Under the pieces are notes generated by a model that worked only from the letters and a program-made list of their open reading frames with translations, was not told the DNA's origin and searched no databases. From positions 1-43,735 of the forward strand of contig JAFZQO010000008.1 of the NCBI GenBank assembly GCA_017620335.1: a stretch of DNA of 43,735 nucleotides, given 5' to 3'. The translations under genes and the position numbers were made by a program. Of this stretch, positions 14,916 through 40,196 are shown one piece after another. The stretch comes from Bacteroidales bacterium (GTDB lineage Bacteria > Bacteroidota > Bacteroidia > Bacteroidales > UBA932). The stretch's first letter is position 1; the number at the start of each line of letters is the position of its first letter.

Positions 14916-17900
14916 TTATCGGAGTTTTGACAGGAGCGACCAGGCCTTTTTCATCGAATCCACGTTCCTGACCACTATCTTCAGTTTGTTCTCGACCTGC
15001 TTCAGATTGAAAACGGGGTTCTCCCCCACCCTCTCCAGGACCTTTGTGAAGGTGGACGAACGGTAGTACGGGGACATGGGGTTGGAGATGAAGAAGAATA
15101 TCATAAGGCCGTTCTTGATGATTATCTTCTCGAAGCCGAGCGAGGCACCGAGATTCCTTACCTTAACCACATACAGCAGGTTGTCCACCTCCGGCGGCAG
15201 CTTTCCGAAACGGTCGGCCAGCTGCGTCCCGAAACGGTCTATTTCTTTCTCCGACACCATGGAATCCAGCTGCTTGTAGATGCGTATCTTCTCGGCGTTG
15301 ATGTCGATGAAATCATCGGGAAGGAAGGCCGGCTGGTCCGTCTCTATGGTACAGTCCTCCACGAAGGTGTTGCGCATGTTCCTGGTCGTGATGCCAGTCT
15401 CAACTCCCAGTTCCTCCATTGCTTCGGCAAGGATCTTCTGGTAGGTCTCGTAACCCATGTCCATGATGAAACCGCTCTGCTCGGCGCCCAGGAGGTTGCC
15501 GGCGCCACGTATGTCGAGGTCCTGCATCGCAATGTTGAAGCCGCTTCCGAGATCGGAGAACTCCTCGATAGCCTTCAGGCGCCTCCGGGCATCGTCGGTG
15601 ATGGTGACGAGGGGAGGGACTATGAGATAGCAGAAAGCCCTCTTGTTGGAGCGTCCCACGCGGCCGCGCAGCTGGTGCAGGTCGCTAAGACCAATGTTCT
15701 GCGCCTGATTGATGATGATGGTGTTGGCGTTGGGAATATCAAGTCCGTTTTCAATAATGGTGGTGCACAGGAGCATGTCGTAGTCGCCCCGGATGAAATC
15801 CAACATGCGGTTCTCCAGCTCCTTGGACTCCATCTGCCCGTGCGCCACGCATATGCGCATGTCGGGCACGAGCCTGTGCAGGATTTCATAAATGGAGGGG
15901 AGTTCCTCCACCTTGTTGTGAAGGAAGAACAGCTGTCCTCCCCTGTTGAGTTCGTAGTTTATTATGCTCTTTATCTCCTTCTCGTCGAAAAGGATGATCT
16001 CAGTCTGGATGGGGATGCGGTTGGGAGGAGGGGTGTTGATGATGGAAAGGTCGCGGGCTCCCAGCAGCGAGAACTGGAGCGTGCGCGGGATGGGGGTGGC
16101 CGTCAGTGTAAGGGTATCCACGGACATCTTCATCTGGCGCAGCCTTTCCTTGGCCGCAACGCCGAACTTCTGTTCCTCGTCTATCACCAGCAGGCCCAGG
16201 TCCTTGAAATCAAAACCTTTAGCGAGTATTTTATGGGTTCCTATCAGAATATCTATCTGACCTTTGGCAAGCCTTTCCTGGATTTCCCTTATCTCCTTGG
16301 CCGTACGCAGGCGGCTCACGTAATCAACGGTGCAAGGAAGTCCCTTCAGGCGGGAGGTGAAGGTTGTGAAATGCTGGAGCGCAAGGATGGTTGTGGGGAC
16401 GAGCACCGCCACCTGCTTGTTGTCCGCAACGGCCTTGAAGGCGGCGCGGATGGCTATTTCAGTCTTGCCGAAACCGACGTCACCGCAGACCAGCCTGTCC
16501 ATCGGGCAGGAATCCTCCATGTCCTGCTTCACGGCGACGGTGGCCAGTTCCTGGTCGGGAGTATCCTCGTACATGAACGACGATTCCAACTCCTCCTGGA
16601 GATAGGTGTCTGGGGAGAAGGCGAATCCTTTGGAAGCCTTGCGCTTGGCGTAAAGTTGTATGAGGTCCTTTGCTATGTCCTTGACGCGGGACTTAGCGTT
16701 AGATTTGAGCGTCTGCCAGCTGCGGGATCCCAACTTGTTGATCTTCGGAGTCTCCCCTTCCCTGGGCTTGTAACGGGAAATCTTGTTCAGGGCATGGACC
16801 GAGACGAATACCACATCACCGTCCTTGTAAGTGAGCTTGACCACTTCCTTTACCCTGCCCACGTCGTCCCTCATGCGTACGAGGCCGCCGAAAATACCGA
16901 CGCCGTGGTCAATATGGACTATATAGTCTCCCACATTAAAGGAATTCAAGTCATTGAGGGTGAGTTGTTCGCTCTTGTCGACGGTTCTTCTGAGGCTGAC
17001 CCTGTGGAAACGGTCGAATATCTCATGGTCGGAATAGCAGCATACCTTGTTCTCCGCATCTATGAATCCATTATGGATGTTCTTCCCGTTCACGAACTGA
17101 GGTACAATACCGCCGTTCTGCAGCAGGATCGAGCGCAGGCGCTCCAACTGGGATTCCTTTTCACCGTAAATGAAAACCTTGTATCGGTTCTCTATCCTTG
17201 ACCGTATGTCCGCGGTGAGCAGTTCGAAATTCTTATTGAAGACCGGCTGGGGAGATATGGAGAAAACTATCTTGTCTTCTCCCCCGTAGGACATAGGTGA
17301 ATCTATATATACCTTGCGGAAACGTCTGAGCCCTTCGAAGAAATCCTTATGGGAATACATGTCAGAGGAATCGAGCCAGAGCACCGTATCGTCCGGAAAT
17401 ATCGAAGCCGGTTCAACAAGGGACTCCCCTTCCCCGTCTGACACCATGGATGAAATAATGTCTATCGACTCCACCTTCTCCTTGGACAACTGGGTGTTGC
17501 AGTCGAAGGTATGCATCTCTTCTATCTCGTCACCCCAGAAAGAGAGACGATATGGATCCGAAGATGAATATGAGAATATGTCCACGACCGATCCCCTGAA
17601 TGCAAACTGTCCGGGAGCGGATACGAAATCCACTTTTTCAAAACCACCTTCCGCAAGTTTTTCCTTCAGTCCTTCGTAATGGATTTCATCACCCGCCTTC
17701 AAGGTTAGTATGGAGGATTTTATTCTTCCCGGATCGGGAATACCCTCCTCCAGGGCCTCGGGGAACGTTACGAAAACATTGAAGGAATTTTCCTTCGAAA
17801 GCATTTGTCCTATAGCGGCCGTCCTCTGGACTCCAAGGGACGATTTATAGTTGCTTCTCTCAATACCCTTTCCCGATGAAGGAAGATAGAATACGTGGTC

Positions 17901-18101
17901 TCCCTCTATGAGGTTGTAAAGGTCTGCCGAACAGTATTCAGCCGCCTCCTTGTTGGGAAGAAGGACAACGTGGGTACCCGTATTTACGGCCTGGGACAAT
18001 ACGAACCATCGGGCTGAGAGGTACAGTCCGGAACAGTAGGTTTCCCGCTTCTCCGCAATACTTTCCCGGAGAACGGAAGTGGAGGTTGAACTTATCAACA
18101 T
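14916..18101 (-). CDS. mfd: Transcription-repair coupling factor
   Basis: The ATG at 18101 gives 1061 residues. The frame stays open to a TTG at 18248, but that extension runs through the repeated TTATCAACA boxes and is probably not coding. Domains: UvrB-homology N-terminal region (about 1-320, with FRGSVVDIFSYSS), CarD-like RNA polymerase interaction domain from about 385 (NVGDYIVHIDHGVGIF), and RecG-like SF2 translocase with Walker A GDVGFGKTE (about 540-548, Lys 546) and motif II DEEQ (about 640). The usual helicase motifs TATPIPRTLQFSL and QLRGRVGRS precede the C-terminal TRCF domain. Mfd removes stalled RNA polymerase and recruits UvrA. It is divergent from ruvB across the candidate origin. 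Length is slightly short for the family, so the start is not certain. Confidence 0.93.
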   Translation of the reverse strand: MLISSTSTSVLRESIAEKRETYCSGLYLSARWFVLSQAVNTGTHVVLLPNKEAAEYCSADLYNLIEGDHVFYLPSSGKGIERSNYKSSLGVQRTAAIGQMLSKENSFNVFVTFPEALEEGIPDPGRIKSSILTLKAGDEIHYEGLKEKLAEGGFEKVDFVSAPGQFAFRGSVVDIFSYSSSDPYRLSFWGDEIEEMHTFDCNTQLSKEKVESIDIISSMVSDGEGESLVEPASIFPDDTVLWLDSSDMYSHKDFFEGLRRFRKVYIDSPMSYGGEDKIVFSISPQPVFNKNFELLTADIRSRIENRYKVFIYGEKESQLERLRSILLQNGGIVPQFVNGKNIHNGFIDAENKVCCYSDHEIFDRFHRVSLRRTVDKSEQLTLNDLNSFNVGDYIVHIDHGVGIFGGLVRMRDDVGRVKEVVKLTYKDGDVVFVSVHALNKISRYKPREGETPKINKLGSRSWQTLKSNAKSRVKDIAKDLIQLYAKRKASKGFAFSPDTYLQEELESSFMYEDTPDQELATVAVKQDMEDSCPMDRLVCGDVGFGKTEIAIRAAFKAVADNKQVAVLVPTTILALQHFTTFTSRLKGLPCTVDYVSRLRTAKEIREIQERLAKGQIDILIGTHKILAKGFDFKDLGLLVIDEEQKFGVAAKERLRQMKMSVDTLTLTATPIPRTLQFSLLGARDLSIINTPPPNRIPIQTEIILFDEKEIKSIINYELNRGGQLFFLHNKVEELPSIYEILHRLVPDMRICVAHGQMESKELENRMLDFIRGDYDMLLCTTIIENGLDIPNANTIIINQAQNIGLSDLHQLRGRVGRSNKRAFCYLIVPPLVTITDDARRRLKAIEEFSDLGSGFNIAMQDLDIRGAGNLLGAEQSGFIMDMGYETYQKILAEAMEELGVETGITTRNMRNTFVEDCTIETDQPAFLPDDFIDINAEKIRIYKQLDSMVSEKEIDRFGTQLADRFGKLPPEVDNLLYVVKVRNLGASLGFEKIIIKNGLMIFFFISNPMSPYYRSSTFTKVLERVGENPVFNLKQVENKLKIVVRNVDSMKKAWSLLSKLR

Positions 18102-18350
18102 TCCCTTTATAATCCTGTTGAAAAACTGTTGACAACGATGTTGATAATAGGGGGTGGTTTTGTCAACTTCTTTTCCTTCTTTTTTATCAACAGTCCGCAA
18201 AGGATCCGGCCAACACTTTCCCAACAGTCTTAAATAATGTATAAGCAATTGATATATAGTCCTTTCACAGGATTTATCAACAATTCAACAGCTTTTACAT
18301 TACCATCATATAATAAAAATAAAAAACTATATTTGTATTTGTAAAAGATC
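18092..18350. other. oriC: Candidate chromosomal replication origin (DnaA-box-like cluster plus AT-rich region)
   Basis: The nine-mer TTATCAACA occurs exactly four times: 18092-18100, 18184-18192 and 18274-18282 on plus, and 18139-18147 on minus. Close variants are TTTTCAACA (minus, 18116-18124), TTGTCAACA (minus, 18127-18135) and TTGTCAACT (plus, 18160-18168). The nine-mer differs by one base from the E. coli DnaA box TTATCCACA. The last exact box is followed by a strongly AT-rich stretch (about 18290-18345) that could unwind. The region is the divergent gap between mfd and ruvB and the point where gene orientation flips. The function as oriC is inferred; a DnaA-controlled promoter region is the main alternative. 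Confidence 0.6.
18328..18335 (+). promoter_or_regulatory. Bacteroidota -7 element for ruvB
   Basis: TATATTTG, a full match to TAnnTTTG, lies 22 bases before the ruvB ATG inside the AT-rich part of the candidate origin. The leader would be very short. Confidence 0.6.
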
Positions 18351-18357
18351 GACGCTT

Positions 18358-19377
18358 ATGACCGACTTCGACCCCCGGAATACAAACGATTGCAAAGATA
18401 AGGAATTAGACGGAATAATAAGGCCGCAGGAGCTGGAAGATTTCACCGGCCAGAGGGAAATAGTGTCAAACCTGAAGATTTACATCCAGGCGGCGAAGAT
18501 GCGCGGGGAGGCGCTGGACCATACGCTTTTCCACGGTCCTCCCGGCCTCGGAAAGACCACCCTCGCGCATATCATTGCCAACGAGATGGGAGTCAACATG
18601 AAGATCACCTCCGGCCCCGTCCTTGACAAGCCTGGCGACCTGGCCGGCCTCCTAACTTCCCTCGAGGAAGGCGACGTCCTTTTCATCGACGAGATCCACC
18701 GTCTCTCCCCCGAGGTCGAGGAGTATCTCTACTCCGCCATGGAGGATTACGTGATAGACATAATGATAGACAAAGGGCCAGGCGCAAGGTCGGTCCGCAT
18801 TACTCTCAACCGCTTCACTCTTGTGGGCGCGACGACGCGGAGCGGCCTCCTGACGGCGCCGCTGCGCGAGCGCTTCGGCATCACTTGTCCCCTCGAATAC
18901 TATGATACCGAGGAACTTGTGAAGATAGTACAGCGAAGTGCATATATCCTTAAGGTGGGGATAGAGCAGCAGGCTGCGCGCGAGATCGCGATGCGCAGCC
19001 GCGGCACCCCGCGTATAGCCAACGCGCTGCTCAAGCGTGTCCGCGACTTCGCACAGGTAATGGGCGACGGGCACATTGACCTGCAGATAGCCAGGTATGC
19101 CCTGGACAAACTCAAGATCGACACTCTCGGACTCGATTCCATAGACCATAAGATACTCAAGACCATCATCACCACCTTCAAGGGAGGTCCTGTCGGTGCC
19201 GGCACCATCGCCACCGCCATCAGCGAGGATCAGGGCACCCTTGAGGAAGTGTACGAGCCTTTCCTGATCAAGGAAGGATTCATCGTCAGGACTCCGCGCG
19301 GACGCGTTGCAACAGAACTGGCTTACAAGCATCTCGGAGTGGACAGGTTTACTGACGAAGGCGGGAATCTTTTCTGA
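18358..19377 (+). CDS. ruvB: Holliday junction branch-migration motor RuvB
   Basis: A 339-residue AAA+ ATPase of normal length. It begins with the RuvB-type N-terminus [20 protein letters not shown], then Walker [10 protein letters not shown] (residues 60-68), Walker [16 protein letters not shown] (about 108-122), sensor 1 [14 protein letters not shown], and the C-terminal winged-helix domain ending [14 protein letters not shown]. RuvB hexamers pump DNA through RuvA-bound Holliday junctions. ruvA lies 8.5 kb away on the other strand (27919-28512) and ruvC is not in the window, so the ruv genes are dispersed, as is common in this phylum. It has its own promoter and is the first gene on the right of the candidate origin. 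Confidence 0.98.
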
Positions 19378-25927: not shown

Positions 25928-27889
25928 ATGCAGAATATTTATGATGTCATAGTCGTAGGAGGCGGTCATGCCGGCTGTGAAGCCGCGATGGCCGCTTCAA
26001 GGATGGGATCAAGCGTCCTTCTCATCTCCATGGACATGTTGGGTTTCGCCAAAATGTCTTGTAATCCGGCTGTTGGAGGAATAGCTAAAGGTCAGATAGT
26101 CAGGGAGATAGACGCACTCGGAGGATATACCGGAATGGTTACGGATGCTTGTACGTTGCAGTTCCGCATGCTCAATAAATCGAAGGGTCCGGCCATGTGG
26201 AGCCCCCGTGCGCAGTGTGATAAAATCCGTTTTTCCCTGTACTGGCGCAAAGTCCTCGAAAGTAATTGTAAATTAGATATTTACATCGATTCTGCCGTCT
26301 CTTTCCTCTTTGAGAATTCAAAAATCGCAGGAGTACGTACGACTACAGGGGCGATTTTCAAGTCTCGGACGGTTGTTTTGACCGCCGGAACATTCCTTAA
26401 CGGCAAGTTGTTCATAGGACGCACCCAGTTCGAAGGCGGCCGCATCGGCGAACTCTCTTCGCGCGGCCTGACCGAGCAGCTCGCTTCGATGGGTATCGCG
26501 ACCGAAAGGATGAAGACGGGAACCCCTCCCAGGATCGACATTTCCTCCGTAGACACTTCGTCGCTTACCGTCCAGGTCGGAGACGAACAGCCGGACAAGT
26601 TCTCCTTCCTGCCTTACCTGTCTTCCGTCCAGAACGGAACCCCGCAGATGCCATGCTTCATCCTTCACACCAACGTTGAGGTCCATGACATCCTCCGTTC
26701 GGGTTTCCAGGATTCCCCGCTGTTTTCCGGAATGATCCACGGCAGGGGTCCGAGATACTGCCCGAGTATCGAGGACAAGCTGAGGGTTTTTCCTGACAAG
26801 GATTCTCACCAGCTTTTCCTTGAGCCGGAGGGTAGGGGAACGAACGAATATTATCTTCAGGGGTTCTCCTCGTCACTTCCGCTTCAAACACAGCTGGATG
26901 CCCTCCATGCCATTCCCGGGTTGGAAAATGTCCGTATATTCAGGCCGGCTTACGCGGTGGAATATGACTATTTCGACCCCACCCAGCTGAAGGTTTCGCT
27001 TGAATCCAAGGTGGTGGAAAACCTTTTCCTGGCCGGCCAGGTCAATGGTACGACAGGCTATGAAGAGGCTGCCGCACAGGGGATTGTCGCTGGCATTAAC
27101 GCTCATCTGAAATGTGTGGAAAAGGATCCTCTCGTGCTCCGCAGGGACGAATCTTATATAGGGGTCCTTATAGATGACCTGGTTACGAAGGGTGTGGACG
27201 AGCCTTACAGGATGTTCACTTCCAGGGCGGAGTACAGGATACTTCTGAGGCAGGATAACGCCGACCTCAGGCTTACAGGCCTGTCCCATGAACTCGGACT
27301 GGCCGATGAATACCGCTATGCTTATACTCAGAAGAAGTATGAGGATATCGCGCGCCTGCGCAGATTCTGCGACTCGACGAATCTCACCCGTAAACAGGCG
27401 AATCCCTATCTGGAGAGCGTCGGTTCCGCCCCTATCACAGATTCAAAAAAGCTATCAGAACTAGCTTCCAGGCCGGAAGTCACCCTTTCCGACCTCCTGT
27501 CGTGTTGTCATTCCGGGCGTCTTTCCTGTCATTCCGAGCGAAGCGAAGGAATCTTCCCGGGGCAGGGGATTGACAATCCAGTTCTTCCTCCATCCCAGGA
27601 CGAAGAAAAGATACAGTCGATTTATCGGAAGGAAATATGCGATTCCGTAGAAATCTCAGTCAAATATCAGGGATACATCGAGCGCGAACAGAGGATCGCG
27701 GACAAGATAATGAGACTCGAAGACCTGAGGATTCCGGAAGGTTTTGACTTCGACAGCGTCTCCGGCTTGACAATAGAATGCCGTCAAAAGCTCAAGAAAT
27801 ACGCTCCATCCACGATTGCACAGGCGTCGCGTATTTCGGGTGTTTCTCCCGCGGATATTTCTGTTTTGCTGGTATATTTCGGAAGATAA
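25928..27889 (+). CDS. mnmG: tRNA uridine-5-carboxymethylaminomethyl synthesis enzyme MnmG, with in-frame repeat insertion
   Basis: A 653-residue FAD protein. The FAD motif is [15 protein letters not shown] (about 9-23). The family signatures are [32 protein letters not shown] and [19 protein letters not shown], and the MnmE-binding C-terminal domain ends [20 protein letters not shown]. With MnmE it makes the cmnm5 modification on U34 of certain tRNAs. The unusual part is near residues 525-560: where relatives have a short linker after [10 protein letters not shown] there is [20 protein letters not shown] and more, a translated palindromic repeat (27506-27556) that adds about 30 residues without shifting the frame. 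The homologous C-terminal domain resumes at [16 protein letters not shown] parS-like palindrome begins at the base after the stop. Confidence 0.95.
27506..27556 (+). repeat. Palindromic-repeat insertion translated within mnmG
   Basis: TGTCATTCCGGGCG (27506-27519) is followed 21 bases on by TGTCATTCCGAGCGAAGC and then GAAGGAATCTTC (27527-27556). The second unit occurs again, inverted, at 40126-40152, after manC. Both units are in the same reading phase in mnmG and translate as CHSGRLS and [10 protein letters not shown]. Confidence 0.85.
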
Positions 27890-27905
27890 TGTTCCACGTG
27901 GAACA
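27890..27905. other. parS: parS-like ParB binding site
   Basis: TGTTCCACGTGGAACA is a perfect 16-base palindrome that fits the bacterial parS consensus TGTTNCACGTGNAACA at every fixed position. It begins directly after the mnmG stop, in the 29-base gap to the convergent ruvA gene. Chromosomal parS sites bind ParB and are concentrated near the replication origin; this one is about 9.6 kb from the candidate oriC. No parA or parB gene is in the window. Confidence 0.85.
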
Positions 27906-27918
27906 AAAGTCCCTTAAA

Positions 27919-28512
27919 TCAAAGCATTTTCAGCGCAGCCTTGATAATCTCTTCCACCTTTGCTCCAGGGTTTTTCTTGAGAACGGCCTGAATGGCCTTG
28001 TTTACGTTGGGTTTTGAGAAGCCCAGCATAGTAAGCGCGCTGGTGGCTTCCTCTATATCCGAGTTGTTGTCCGCCTTGAAAATGACGTCCGAACCGGCTC
28101 CTTCGCCCTTGACGATCTTGTCCTTCAGTTCCAGGATCATCCTCTGGGAGCTCTTGAGTCCGATTCCCTTGATCGACTTGATCTTGTTGATGTTCTCCGA
28201 GATGATGGCCTCGCGGAATTCGTCTGCGGTCATGGCCGAGAGTATCATCCTGGCGGAAGCCGCACCGATGCCGGAAATTCCCACGATGAGTTCGAACAAC
28301 TCCCTTTCGTCCTTGGTGGCAAAGCCGTACATGACTTCGGTGGCATCCCTCTGGTTGATGGTGGTGAAGACATAGACCTTGGCTTCCTTGTAATTCCTGA
28401 GGGCCTCATAGGTCTGCAGGGAGATTTCCAAACCGTAGCCCATTCCGTGGTTGTCCACGACTATCCGGGTGGGGGAGAGGTCGGCTATGTTTCCGGAGAT
28501 ATATTCAATCAT
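27919..28512 (-). CDS. ruvA: Holliday junction-binding protein RuvA
   Basis: The ATG at 28512 gives 197 residues beginning MIEYISGNIADLSPTRIVVD, the standard RuvA start; a TTG at 28536 falls in the promoter. Domain I (OB fold, about 1-62) is followed by domain II with two helix-hairpin-helix motifs (VGISGIGAASARMIL and KSIKGIGLKSSQRMIL) and domain III (about 150-197, SALTMLGFSKPNVNKAIQ), which contacts RuvB. RuvA tetramers hold Holliday junctions for RuvB. It is convergent with mnmG and divergent from sufS, sharing a compact promoter region. ruvB is 8.5 kb away on the other strand. Confidence 0.96.
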   Translation of the reverse strand: MIEYISGNIADLSPTRIVVDNHGMGYGLEISLQTYEALRNYKEAKVYVFTTINQRDATEVMYGFATKDERELFELIVGISGIGAASARMILSAMTADEFREAIISENINKIKSIKGIGLKSSQRMILELKDKIVKGEGAGSDVIFKADNNSDIEEATSALTMLGFSKPNVNKAIQAVLKKNPGAKVEEIIKAALKML

Positions 28513-28533
28513 GGCGTATGAAATTGTCCTTCG

Positions 28534-28560
28534 CAAATTTATTTATAATTCTTAAATTTG
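28534..28560. promoter_or_regulatory. Divergent promoter pair, ruvA (minus) and sufS (plus)
   Basis: TAAATTTG occurs on minus at 28534-28541 (22 bases before the ruvA ATG) and again on plus at 28553-28560 (20 bases before the sufS ATG), with only 11 bases between the two -7 elements. Both fully match TAnnTTTG. The RNA polymerase footprints must overlap, so the two promoters probably compete. Confidence 0.65.
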
Positions 28561-28579: not shown

Positions 28580-29803
28580 ATGAATGTCGAAGAAGTAAGG
28601 AAACTGTTCCCCGGGCTGTCCGGGACGGTATATGGCAAGCCGCTTGTCTATCTGGACAATGCGGCCACCATACAGCGTCCCGCCTGCGTCATCGAGAAGT
28701 GGAACGACCTTTCCATCCATCATAACGCCAACCTTCACCGGGCCGTACACAAGATAGCCGCGGAGGCTACGGAGGAGTATGAGTCCGCCCGCGACACGGT
28801 GCGGGCCTTCCTCAATGCCGGAAGCCGCGAGGAGATAGTTTTTACTTCAGGAGCCACGGCGTCCATCAATCTCGTCGCCTTCAGTTTCGGCGAAGCCTTC
28901 GTCCGTCCCGGCGACGAGATCATAGTCGCGGAGAGCGAACACCATTCCAACATCGTTCCTTGGCAGATGATGTGCGGGCGCAAAGATGCCGTCCTCAAGG
29001 TCCTTCCCGTTGACGGGGACGGGCATCTGAGGATGGATTTGCTGGAGAGCCTCGTCACTGACCGCACCCGCCTGCTTTGTGTCGCCCAGATTTCCAACGT
29101 CCTGGGTATAGTAAACCCCGTCAAGGAGATTGTAAACATTTGTCACTCAAAAGGTTGCCTTGTCCTTGTCGACGGAGCCCAGGGTGTCGTCCACACCGGT
29201 GCCGACGTCCGGGACATGGGCTGCGACTTCTACGTTTTCTCCGGCCACAAGGTTTACGCCGCGCCCGGAACGGGCGTGCTGTACGGCCGCCGTGAACAGC
29301 TGGATCAGATGCCTCCTTACATGGGCGGCGGCGAAATGATAGAAACCGTGAAGTTCTCCGGTACGACTTACGCTCCGCTTCCGGGAAAGTTCGAGGCCGG
29401 CACCCAGAACATGGCCGGGACACCCACGCTCAAGCCTGCCTTGGAGCTGGCGGAAGCATTGAGGGACAAGGAGTTGACGGATTATACCGACAAGGTCAGG
29501 GACTATGTCCTGAACGCCCTTCTGTCGGATGAAAGGATAAGGCTTTACGGTGTTCCCCGTGGAACATTTAACAAAATACCCCTGTTTTCGTTTACTGTGA
29601 AGGGCGCCCATCACGAGGATCTGGCGCTGCTTCTGGACAAGATGGGAATAGCAGTCCGTTCCGGGCAGATGTGCGCCGAGCCGCTGATGGACCGCTACGG
29701 AGTGACGGGCATGCTGCGCGCTTCGTTCGCGCCTTACAACACGCTGGAAGAGGCGGAATATTTCATTAAATCGCTCGACAGGGCGATATCGATGCTGGTA
29801 TGA
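28580..29803 (+). CDS. sufS: Cysteine desulfurase SufS
   Basis: A 407-residue PLP enzyme of group II cysteine desulfurases. It starts in the usual way (VRKLFPGLSG, GKPLVYLDNAATIQRP). The PLP lysine is in FSGHKVYAAPGTGVLYG (Lys 224), and the active-site Cys is in RSGQMCAEPLMDRYG (Cys 365). It takes sulfur from L-cysteine for Fe-S cluster assembly and hands it to SufE, whose gene overlaps its stop by four bases. sufB, sufC and sufD, normally adjacent in this phylum, are not in the window. A parS-like palindrome with one mismatch lies within its coding sequence (29551-29566). Confidence 0.95.
   Translation: MNVEEVRKLFPGLSGTVYGKPLVYLDNAATIQRPACVIEKWNDLSIHHNANLHRAVHKIAAEATEEYESARDTVRAFLNAGSREEIVFTSGATASINLVAFSFGEAFVRPGDEIIVAESEHHSNIVPWQMMCGRKDAVLKVLPVDGDGHLRMDLLESLVTDRTRLLCVAQISNVLGIVNPVKEIVNICHSKGCLVLVDGAQGVVHTGADVRDMGCDFYVFSGHKVYAAPGTGVLYGRREQLDQMPPYMGGGEMIETVKFSGTTYAPLPGKFEAGTQNMAGTPTLKPALELAEALRDKELTDYTDKVRDYVLNALLSDERIRLYGVPRGTFNKIPLFSFTVKGAHHEDLALLLDKMGIAVRSGQMCAEPLMDRYGVTGMLRASFAPYNTLEEAEYFIKSLDRAISMLV
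29551..29566. other. Degenerate parS-like site within sufS
   Basis: TGTTCCCCGTGGAACA differs by one base (C for A in the central CACGTG) from the site at 27890-27905. It encodes part of YGVPRGTF in SufS, so codon constraint may limit it. Whether ParB binds here is uncertain. Confidence 0.45.
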
Positions 29804-40126: not shown

Positions 40127-40196
40127 ATTCCTTCGCTTCGCTCGGAATGACACCCGTGTCATTCTGAGGAGGCCAAAGGCCGACGAAAGAATCTTC
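40126..40196. repeat. Inverted repeat related to the mnmG insertion
   Basis: GATTCCTTCGCTTCGCTCGG and AATGACA (40126-40152) are the reverse complement of the unit inside mnmG at 27527-27553. After CCCG, TGTCATTCTGAGG (40157-40169) begins a related arm ending CGACGAAAGAATCTTC (about 40181-40196), giving a hairpin of about 70 bases with an unpaired middle. It starts at the last base of the manC stop. Confidence 0.8.

Follow-up and report, generated by a model that had tools for sequence, protein, structure and literature searches.

The E. coli oriC is flanked by mnmG and mioC and lies apart from dnaA. Its DnaA boxes, of the form TTATCCACA, stand in arrays on both strands, and one of them, R1, points to an AT-rich unwinding element. 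In most bacteria a parS site near the origin is usual, although not required. For the basal unwinding system (BUS), the relevant part of PMC8287927 gives the rule that one or two co-oriented boxes are followed, after a spacer of at most 16 bases with a peak at 10-13, by a series of triplets. In H. pylori, the upper strand reads 5'-CTA-3' after a box whose lower strand carries protected G at positions 2 and 4, and reversal of the trio polarity stopped opening (PMC8235120). In B. subtilis, strand separation was slower when A17 of the first trio was replaced by T, and Asn187 of DnaA contacts the adenine (PMC10721633). The annotated trio of T. maritima is described as only supportive (PMC10316083), hence the DnaA-trio rule is not absolute. 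The preliminary description of the DNA studied here had stated that origins apart from dnaA are known in this phylum; the account of Prevotella intermedia OMA14 in PMC4755523 calls a location far from dnaA common among Bacteroidetes origins. The OMA14 origin, found with Ori-Finder and E. coli boxes, is likewise a DnaA-box cluster with dnaA not nearby, placed at a skew transition (PMC4755523); the locus presented here differs from it in its TTATCAACA boxes, its mfd-ruvB setting and its parS-like sites, and its unwinding side has been aligned.

We analysed a window of 43,735 nucleotides, the whole stretch of DNA presented above, from an uncultured gut Bacteroidales bacterium. Comparison of its sequence with that of relatives suggests that the gap between mfd and ruvB (approximately 18092-18357) is very probably the chromosomal oriC of this organism. 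The gap had been proposed as a candidate origin in the preliminary description, a proposal now supported by conserved boxes, by parS-like sites, by the remoteness of dnaA and, in some relatives, by a switch of T-A skew; our confidence is slightly lowered by the disagreement of the G-C scan with that of T-A. The parS-like pair in the window, the base-level anatomy of the locus and the inverted triplets described below go beyond that description. If correct, the reading gives a large and mostly uncultured lineage of Bacteroidales a likely oriC, a box sequence and a parS motif, of use in growth-rate estimates from metagenomes and in building replicating vectors. No mfd-ruvB origin was found in those parts of the literature that were available, and predictions of it may be listed in DoriC or in supplements, or related ones among the 2070 origins of PMC8287927.

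DnaA boxes in the mfd-ruvB gap

The gap is bounded on the left by mfd (14916-18101, minus strand; TIGR00580 over cut-off) and on the right by ruvB (18358-19377, plus strand; family search over cut-off), both transcribed away from it. Four exact copies of TTATCAACA and three variants lie within it, spanning 18092-18282; the span of 191 bases bears out the earlier count of four exact boxes and three close variants in about 190 bases. The leftmost predicted box is an exact copy on the plus strand (18092-18100). It is followed on the minus strand by a trio with spacings of 11 and 12 bases, made up of the variants TTTTCAACA (18116-18124) and TTGTCAACA (18127-18135) and an exact copy (18139-18147). 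The variant TTGTCAACT (18160-18168) and the two remaining exact copies (18184-18192 and 18274-18282) are on the plus strand. The last of these adjoins an AT-rich stretch and points into it, sitting in what we take to be the place of E. coli R1. The locus thus shares with E. coli oriC, as generally known, a box pointing to an AT-rich element, boxes on both strands and distance from dnaA, whereas its flanks are mfd and ruvB (mnmG starts 7.6 kb away), its box is TTATCAACA rather than TTATCCACA, and parS-like sites are present. TTATCAACA has been published as one DnaA box of a Cyanothece linear chromosome (PMC4674748).

Whether the cluster is intergenic depends on the start of mfd. The automatic mfd ORF (14916-18248) opens at a TTG at 18248 and covers most of the boxes, and there is only one in-frame ATG ahead of the conserved part of the protein, at 18101-18099. 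Homology among 46 close relatives begins at residue 28 of the long ORF or later in 43, the exceptions being residue 1 in one locus (L035) and residues 18 and 22 in two others. Residues 33-49 of the long ORF are the box trio read as protein, so that some of the N-terminal similarity may be box DNA. We consider 18101 the likely start, the automatic one being probably about 49 codons too early. Provided that mfd starts at 18101, the box cluster is intergenic and its first box overlaps the mfd start codon; annotation of mfd from the TTG would conceal most of the origin inside a gene.

The clustering had been claimed to exceed chance. In 20,000 dinucleotide shuffles of 18091-18357, exact boxes averaged 0.009 and loose boxes 0.14, and none of the shuffles reached the observed four exact or seven loose boxes; chance clustering was accordingly rejected. 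A genome-wide count of the box, which had been proposed as a check, was made in the organism's own assembly (2.76 Mb, 54 contigs, 96.6% complete). TTATCAACA occurs there 18 times, four of them in the gap, and the rest of the window holds no exact copy. The other 14 copies count as background, since the pattern read backward is equally common (20 against 18). No further exact box lies within 300 bases of any of these 14 sites, and one of them (L016) has one additional loose box; a second exact-box cluster in the assembly was therefore rejected. Boxes are thus not equally common elsewhere, nor did a better origin with the same box emerge: the assembly has no other exact-box cluster, and the parS-like sites of all seven genomes searched are near this locus.

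That dnaA is not nearby had also been claimed. Its single copy in the assembly is on a different contig and lacks good boxes in front; the first 700 bases of L019 hold one weak TTTTTCACT only, and an origin beside dnaA was rejected. The distance between dnaA and ruvB is 777 and 596 kb in two single-contig relatives. The box-reading part of all nine Bacteroidales DnaA proteins compared (L019, L276-L283) contains HATV, against HTTV in 1j1v, which we take to be the solved E. coli DnaA domain. HATV is possibly tied to the preference for TTATCAACA.

To follow the locus among relatives, as had been suggested, 80 ruvB loci were gathered with the RuvB of the window as query, all from Bacteroidales or related metagenome assemblies. 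The nearer loci include Candidatus Cryptobacteroides, and the nearest 46 (L020-L065) are the close relatives referred to throughout. Of these 46, 43 have TTATCAACA in the 350 bases upstream of ruvB; of 1260 background tiles, 4 contain it. When nine-mers were counted in the same loci with no prior motif, the promoter-like TATATTTGT came first, upstream of ruvB in 44 of 46, and TTATCAACA second, tied at 43. Nine of the other 34 loci, which are more distant, carry an exact box in the 1 kb upstream of ruvB; the remaining 25 do not. Same-strand box pairs at most 60 bases apart in these gaps are spaced by 11-12, 22-24, 33-35, 43-44 or 52-55 bases in 64 of 78 cases, near whole helical turns, with a further class at 8 bases; through shared ancestry the 78 pairs are not independent. 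The boxes, like the triplet adenines described below, are better conserved than neighbouring alignment columns.

The 46 near loci all have mfd facing ruvB. In five of the others (L067, L069, L070, L072 and L077) mfd lies beyond ruvB, with the boxes still upstream of ruvB, an arrangement that reads as a rearrangement with one end near the origin.

The AT-rich stretch, the tandem boxes and the triplets

The stretch next to the last box (18283-18345) has an A+T fraction of 0.83, compared with 0.37-0.51 in 2-kb windows of the contig, in agreement with the earlier remark on an AT-rich stretch beside the boxes in a GC-rich window. It is a candidate DNA-unwinding element. Directly after the box at 18274-18282 comes a weaker second box in tandem, ATTCAACAG (18283-18291, plus strand; consensus in relatives TTTCAACAG). 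From the box pair a 12-base spacer leads to triplets, which in the window read CAT-TAC-CAT-CAT (18298-18309, plus strand) with the middle A on the box strand; the first triplet place conserved in relatives, 18295-18297, is TTA in the window. At the end of the AT-rich stretch, 22 bases before ruvB, stands the promoter-like element TATATTTG (18328-18335, plus strand), which fits the Bacteroidota -7 promoter consensus.

The tandem pair, recognised by at least 12 of 17 matching bases, is present in 53 of 55 own-genus and close sequences and, for the other genera of the family, in 18 of 24 sequences. It served as the anchor for aligning the unwinding side, the two and six sequences that failed the anchor being dropped before counting. 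The order of box, box, spacer and triplets is conserved. At offsets 22, 25, 28, 31 and 34, adenine is found in 0.87, 0.83, 0.94, 0.92 and 0.83 of the 53 sequences, whereas at the ten positions between these offsets it is found in 0.13-0.68, and none of 2000 shuffles matched the phase. The adenine pattern was little changed in a redundancy-reduced set (less than 80% alike, 46 sequences). A frequency table built with another anchor kept 42 of 48 sequences (the window and L020-L066). The 15 bases beyond the triplets showed no such three-base phase in 42 sequences. A coding cause of the period-3 adenines was rejected, each one of the three frames containing a stop in 32-41 of the 53 sequences. In the other genera of the family the phase is weaker and shifted by one base, and 35 of 2000 shuffles reached it. 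The gap holds a conserved cluster of boxes on both strands, and the AT-rich stretch to which the tandem pair points carries the conserved triplet repeat.

The orientation of the triplets appears to differ from that published. At least three NAN on the box strand occur in 50 of the 53 sequences and at least three NTN in 10; correspondingly, the published trio pattern (at least three 3'-NAN-5' on the strand opposite the TTATCCACA reading) was found in 10 of 53. In so A-rich a stretch, runs of at least four NAN are weak evidence by themselves: 45 of 53 sequences contain one, and so does a fraction of 0.49 of the shuffled sequences. The evidence lies in the fixed phase. With the BUS of B. subtilis and H. 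pylori the locus shares tandem co-oriented boxes with the better one upstream, the 12-base spacer and triplets with a conserved middle base, as far as described in PMC8287927 and PMC8235120. The published triplet is 3'-GAT-5' on the strand opposite the box reading, a polarity that we infer from the H. pylori strand data in PMC8235120, whereas here it is the box strand that has the adenine. On the strand that DnaA is published to bind as ssDNA, the middle base would consequently be thymine. DnaA differs as well: the residue aligned with B. subtilis Asn187 is Thr in this DnaA, as it is in seven of the nine Bacteroidales proteins, the other two having Val.

The new part of the anatomy appears to be this triplet variant, with a conserved adenine on the strand opposite that of published DnaA-trios. 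We put forward, tentatively and with less than even confidence, that origins of the family use a strand-inverted trio, on which the filament would either grow along the other strand or capture thymine, matched by Thr or Val for Asn187 in the initiator-specific motif of DnaA. If functional, the inverted triplets would be a lineage-wide exception to the DnaA-trio rule, which was predicted for 85% of the 2070 origins in the survey reported in PMC8287927.

parS-like sites and strand composition

A search of seven genomes for GTTTCACGTGAAAC, the classic parS core, gave a match in one only (G119, 11 kb from ruvB). That match suggested the symmetric pattern GTTCCACGTGGAAC, which was searched in the seven genomes with at most one mismatch. 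Fourteen sites were found over all seven, every one of them 8.8-16.1 kb from ruvB and on its ruvB side. The pattern was picked after one match, yet the site positions in the other six genomes could not follow from that choice. The control pattern, read backward, matched in G119, once forward and once in reverse, and in none of the other six genomes. The organism's own assembly has two sites of this type, both in the window: GTTCCACGTGGAAC at 27891-27904, in the mnmG-ruvA gap, and GTTCCCCGTGGAAC at 29552-29565, one mismatch from GTTCCACGTGGAAC and inside a sufS-family gene. Each genome has one ParB-family gene, located elsewhere. In our view the parS-like sites lend the origin reading its strongest single support. 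As a separate observation, ruvA (27919-28536, minus strand) lies beside the first parS-like site, 8.5 kb from ruvB and not in a ruvAB operon.

Cumulative GC skew was followed along three relatives assembled as single contigs, with 20 stretches of 20 kb sampled per genome. The minimum in G221 is at ruvB (0.672 Mb; stretches at 0.555-0.686 Mb), with the maximum at 1.67-1.89 Mb. In G010, where ruvB is at 1.494 Mb, a shallow minimum lies 0.13 Mb off at 1.34 Mb, the maximum is at 0.37 Mb, and a second dip at 2.20 Mb is nearly as deep. G001 has ruvB at 0.016 Mb, its minimum about 0.17 Mb off at 2.48 of 2.66 Mb and its maximum at 1.24 Mb. The maxima are roughly opposite the minima in all three. Raw cumulative GC skew in the window has a peak, not a dip, at the gap, which probably stems from gene direction. 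As codon bias ties skew to gene direction, we used fourfold-degenerate sites corrected for gene strand, at which the preliminary description had suggested looking for a switch. In G102 (the same as L033, of the same genus, on a 577-kb contig), fourfold T-A skew is negative in all 12 genes left of the gap (18 kb) and positive in all 19 genes to its right (22 kb), whatever the gene strand; the sign flips between mfd and ruvB.

A change-point scan of gene-level fourfold skew was run on eight relatives and the window, with 500 shuffles that ignore correlation between neighbouring genes. For T-A, G221 (131 genes) and G187 (46 genes) have their best break at the mfd-ruvB gap itself; in G102 (245 genes) the best interval brackets the gap. 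No shuffle was as strong in any of the three. The best break falls 14 kb from the gap in G172, 29 kb in G173 and, in G119, 2-22 kb left of ruvB within a stretch that was not sampled; in G073 it is at least 40 kb away, and G118 has no significant T-A break. T-A skew therefore breaks at the gap in three of the eight relatives, within about 30 kb in three and in neither place in two. In the window itself T-A skew does not switch at the gap; the best break is at 36 kb, and 34 of 500 shuffles reached it.

For G-C, the best break falls in the gap in none of the eight relatives. It is about 4-11 kb off in G172, G173, G221 and G187 (57 of 500 shuffles reached it in G173 and 31 in G187). In G102 and G118 it lies far away, as it does in G119 and G073, where its sign is also opposite; no shuffle was as strong as the breaks in G102 and G119. 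In a left-right comparison over 10 kb, within 5 kb of ruvB, at up to 24 close loci, T-A was positive in 13 of 24 (p 0.13) and G-C in 17 of 23 (p 0.01), and the same behaviour was seen at distant loci that have few boxes or none (8 of 10 and 7 of 8). Of the suggested switch, then, the T-A part stands in G102, G221 and G187; the window's own sequence lacks it and G-C disagrees.

Origin, promoter or titration site

The boxes could instead belong to a DnaA-controlled promoter of ruvB, mfd or both, tying DNA repair genes to the level of DnaA, with the origin elsewhere. The conserved promoter-like TATATTTG so close before ruvB speaks for this, as does the fact that the boxes stay with ruvB even where mfd has moved; yet such a promoter does not predict a T-A switch in the gap, parS-like sites nearby in seven of seven genomes or the conserved order of box, box, spacer and triplets, and seven boxes over 191 bases seem beyond the need of a repressor site. 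We regard it as very unlikely in place of an origin; a DnaA-regulated ruvB promoter may be present in addition to one. Slighter still are the chances of a DnaA-titrating site near, not at, the origin, comparable to E. coli datA. It would account for dense boxes without dnaA nearby, for T-A breaks 2-29 kb off in G172, G173 and G119, and for G-C breaks outside the gap, but the T-A flip of G102 lies between mfd and ruvB, the best break of G221 and G187 is the gap, and titration has no need of a triplet element oriented to a box pair. One could finally suppose that skew switch and parS indicate an origin region only in a general way, the boxes being a by-product of an AT-rich intergenic base composition. 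The gap is indeed AT-rich within a GC-rich genome; shuffles that keep its dinucleotides, however, hardly ever yield an exact box, and boxes and triplet adenines are conserved above surrounding columns, so that we give this account almost no credence.

If the gap is the origin, DnaA made from its distant gene would bind the boxes, and the pair at 18274-18291 would guide a DnaA filament onto one strand of approximately 18295-18345, which would open. Helicases would then load and two forks depart, one towards mfd and one towards ruvB, while ParB on the sites at 27891 and 29552 would help to segregate the new origins. The AT-rich opening would adjoin the candidate ruvB promoter.

Other features of the window were observed in passing. 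The mnmG gene has an apparent in-frame insert near its C-terminus (27494-27608), and its family match ends at residue 528 of 653. A short repeat in this insert, GTCATTCCGAGCG, recurs inverted at 40138-40151, after a mannose-1-phosphate guanylyltransferase-like gene (below family cut-off), and is perhaps a REP-type repeat. The ribosomal protein genes for L3, L4 and L2 (40341-42752, plus strand) begin 22 kb from the proposed origin and point away from it.
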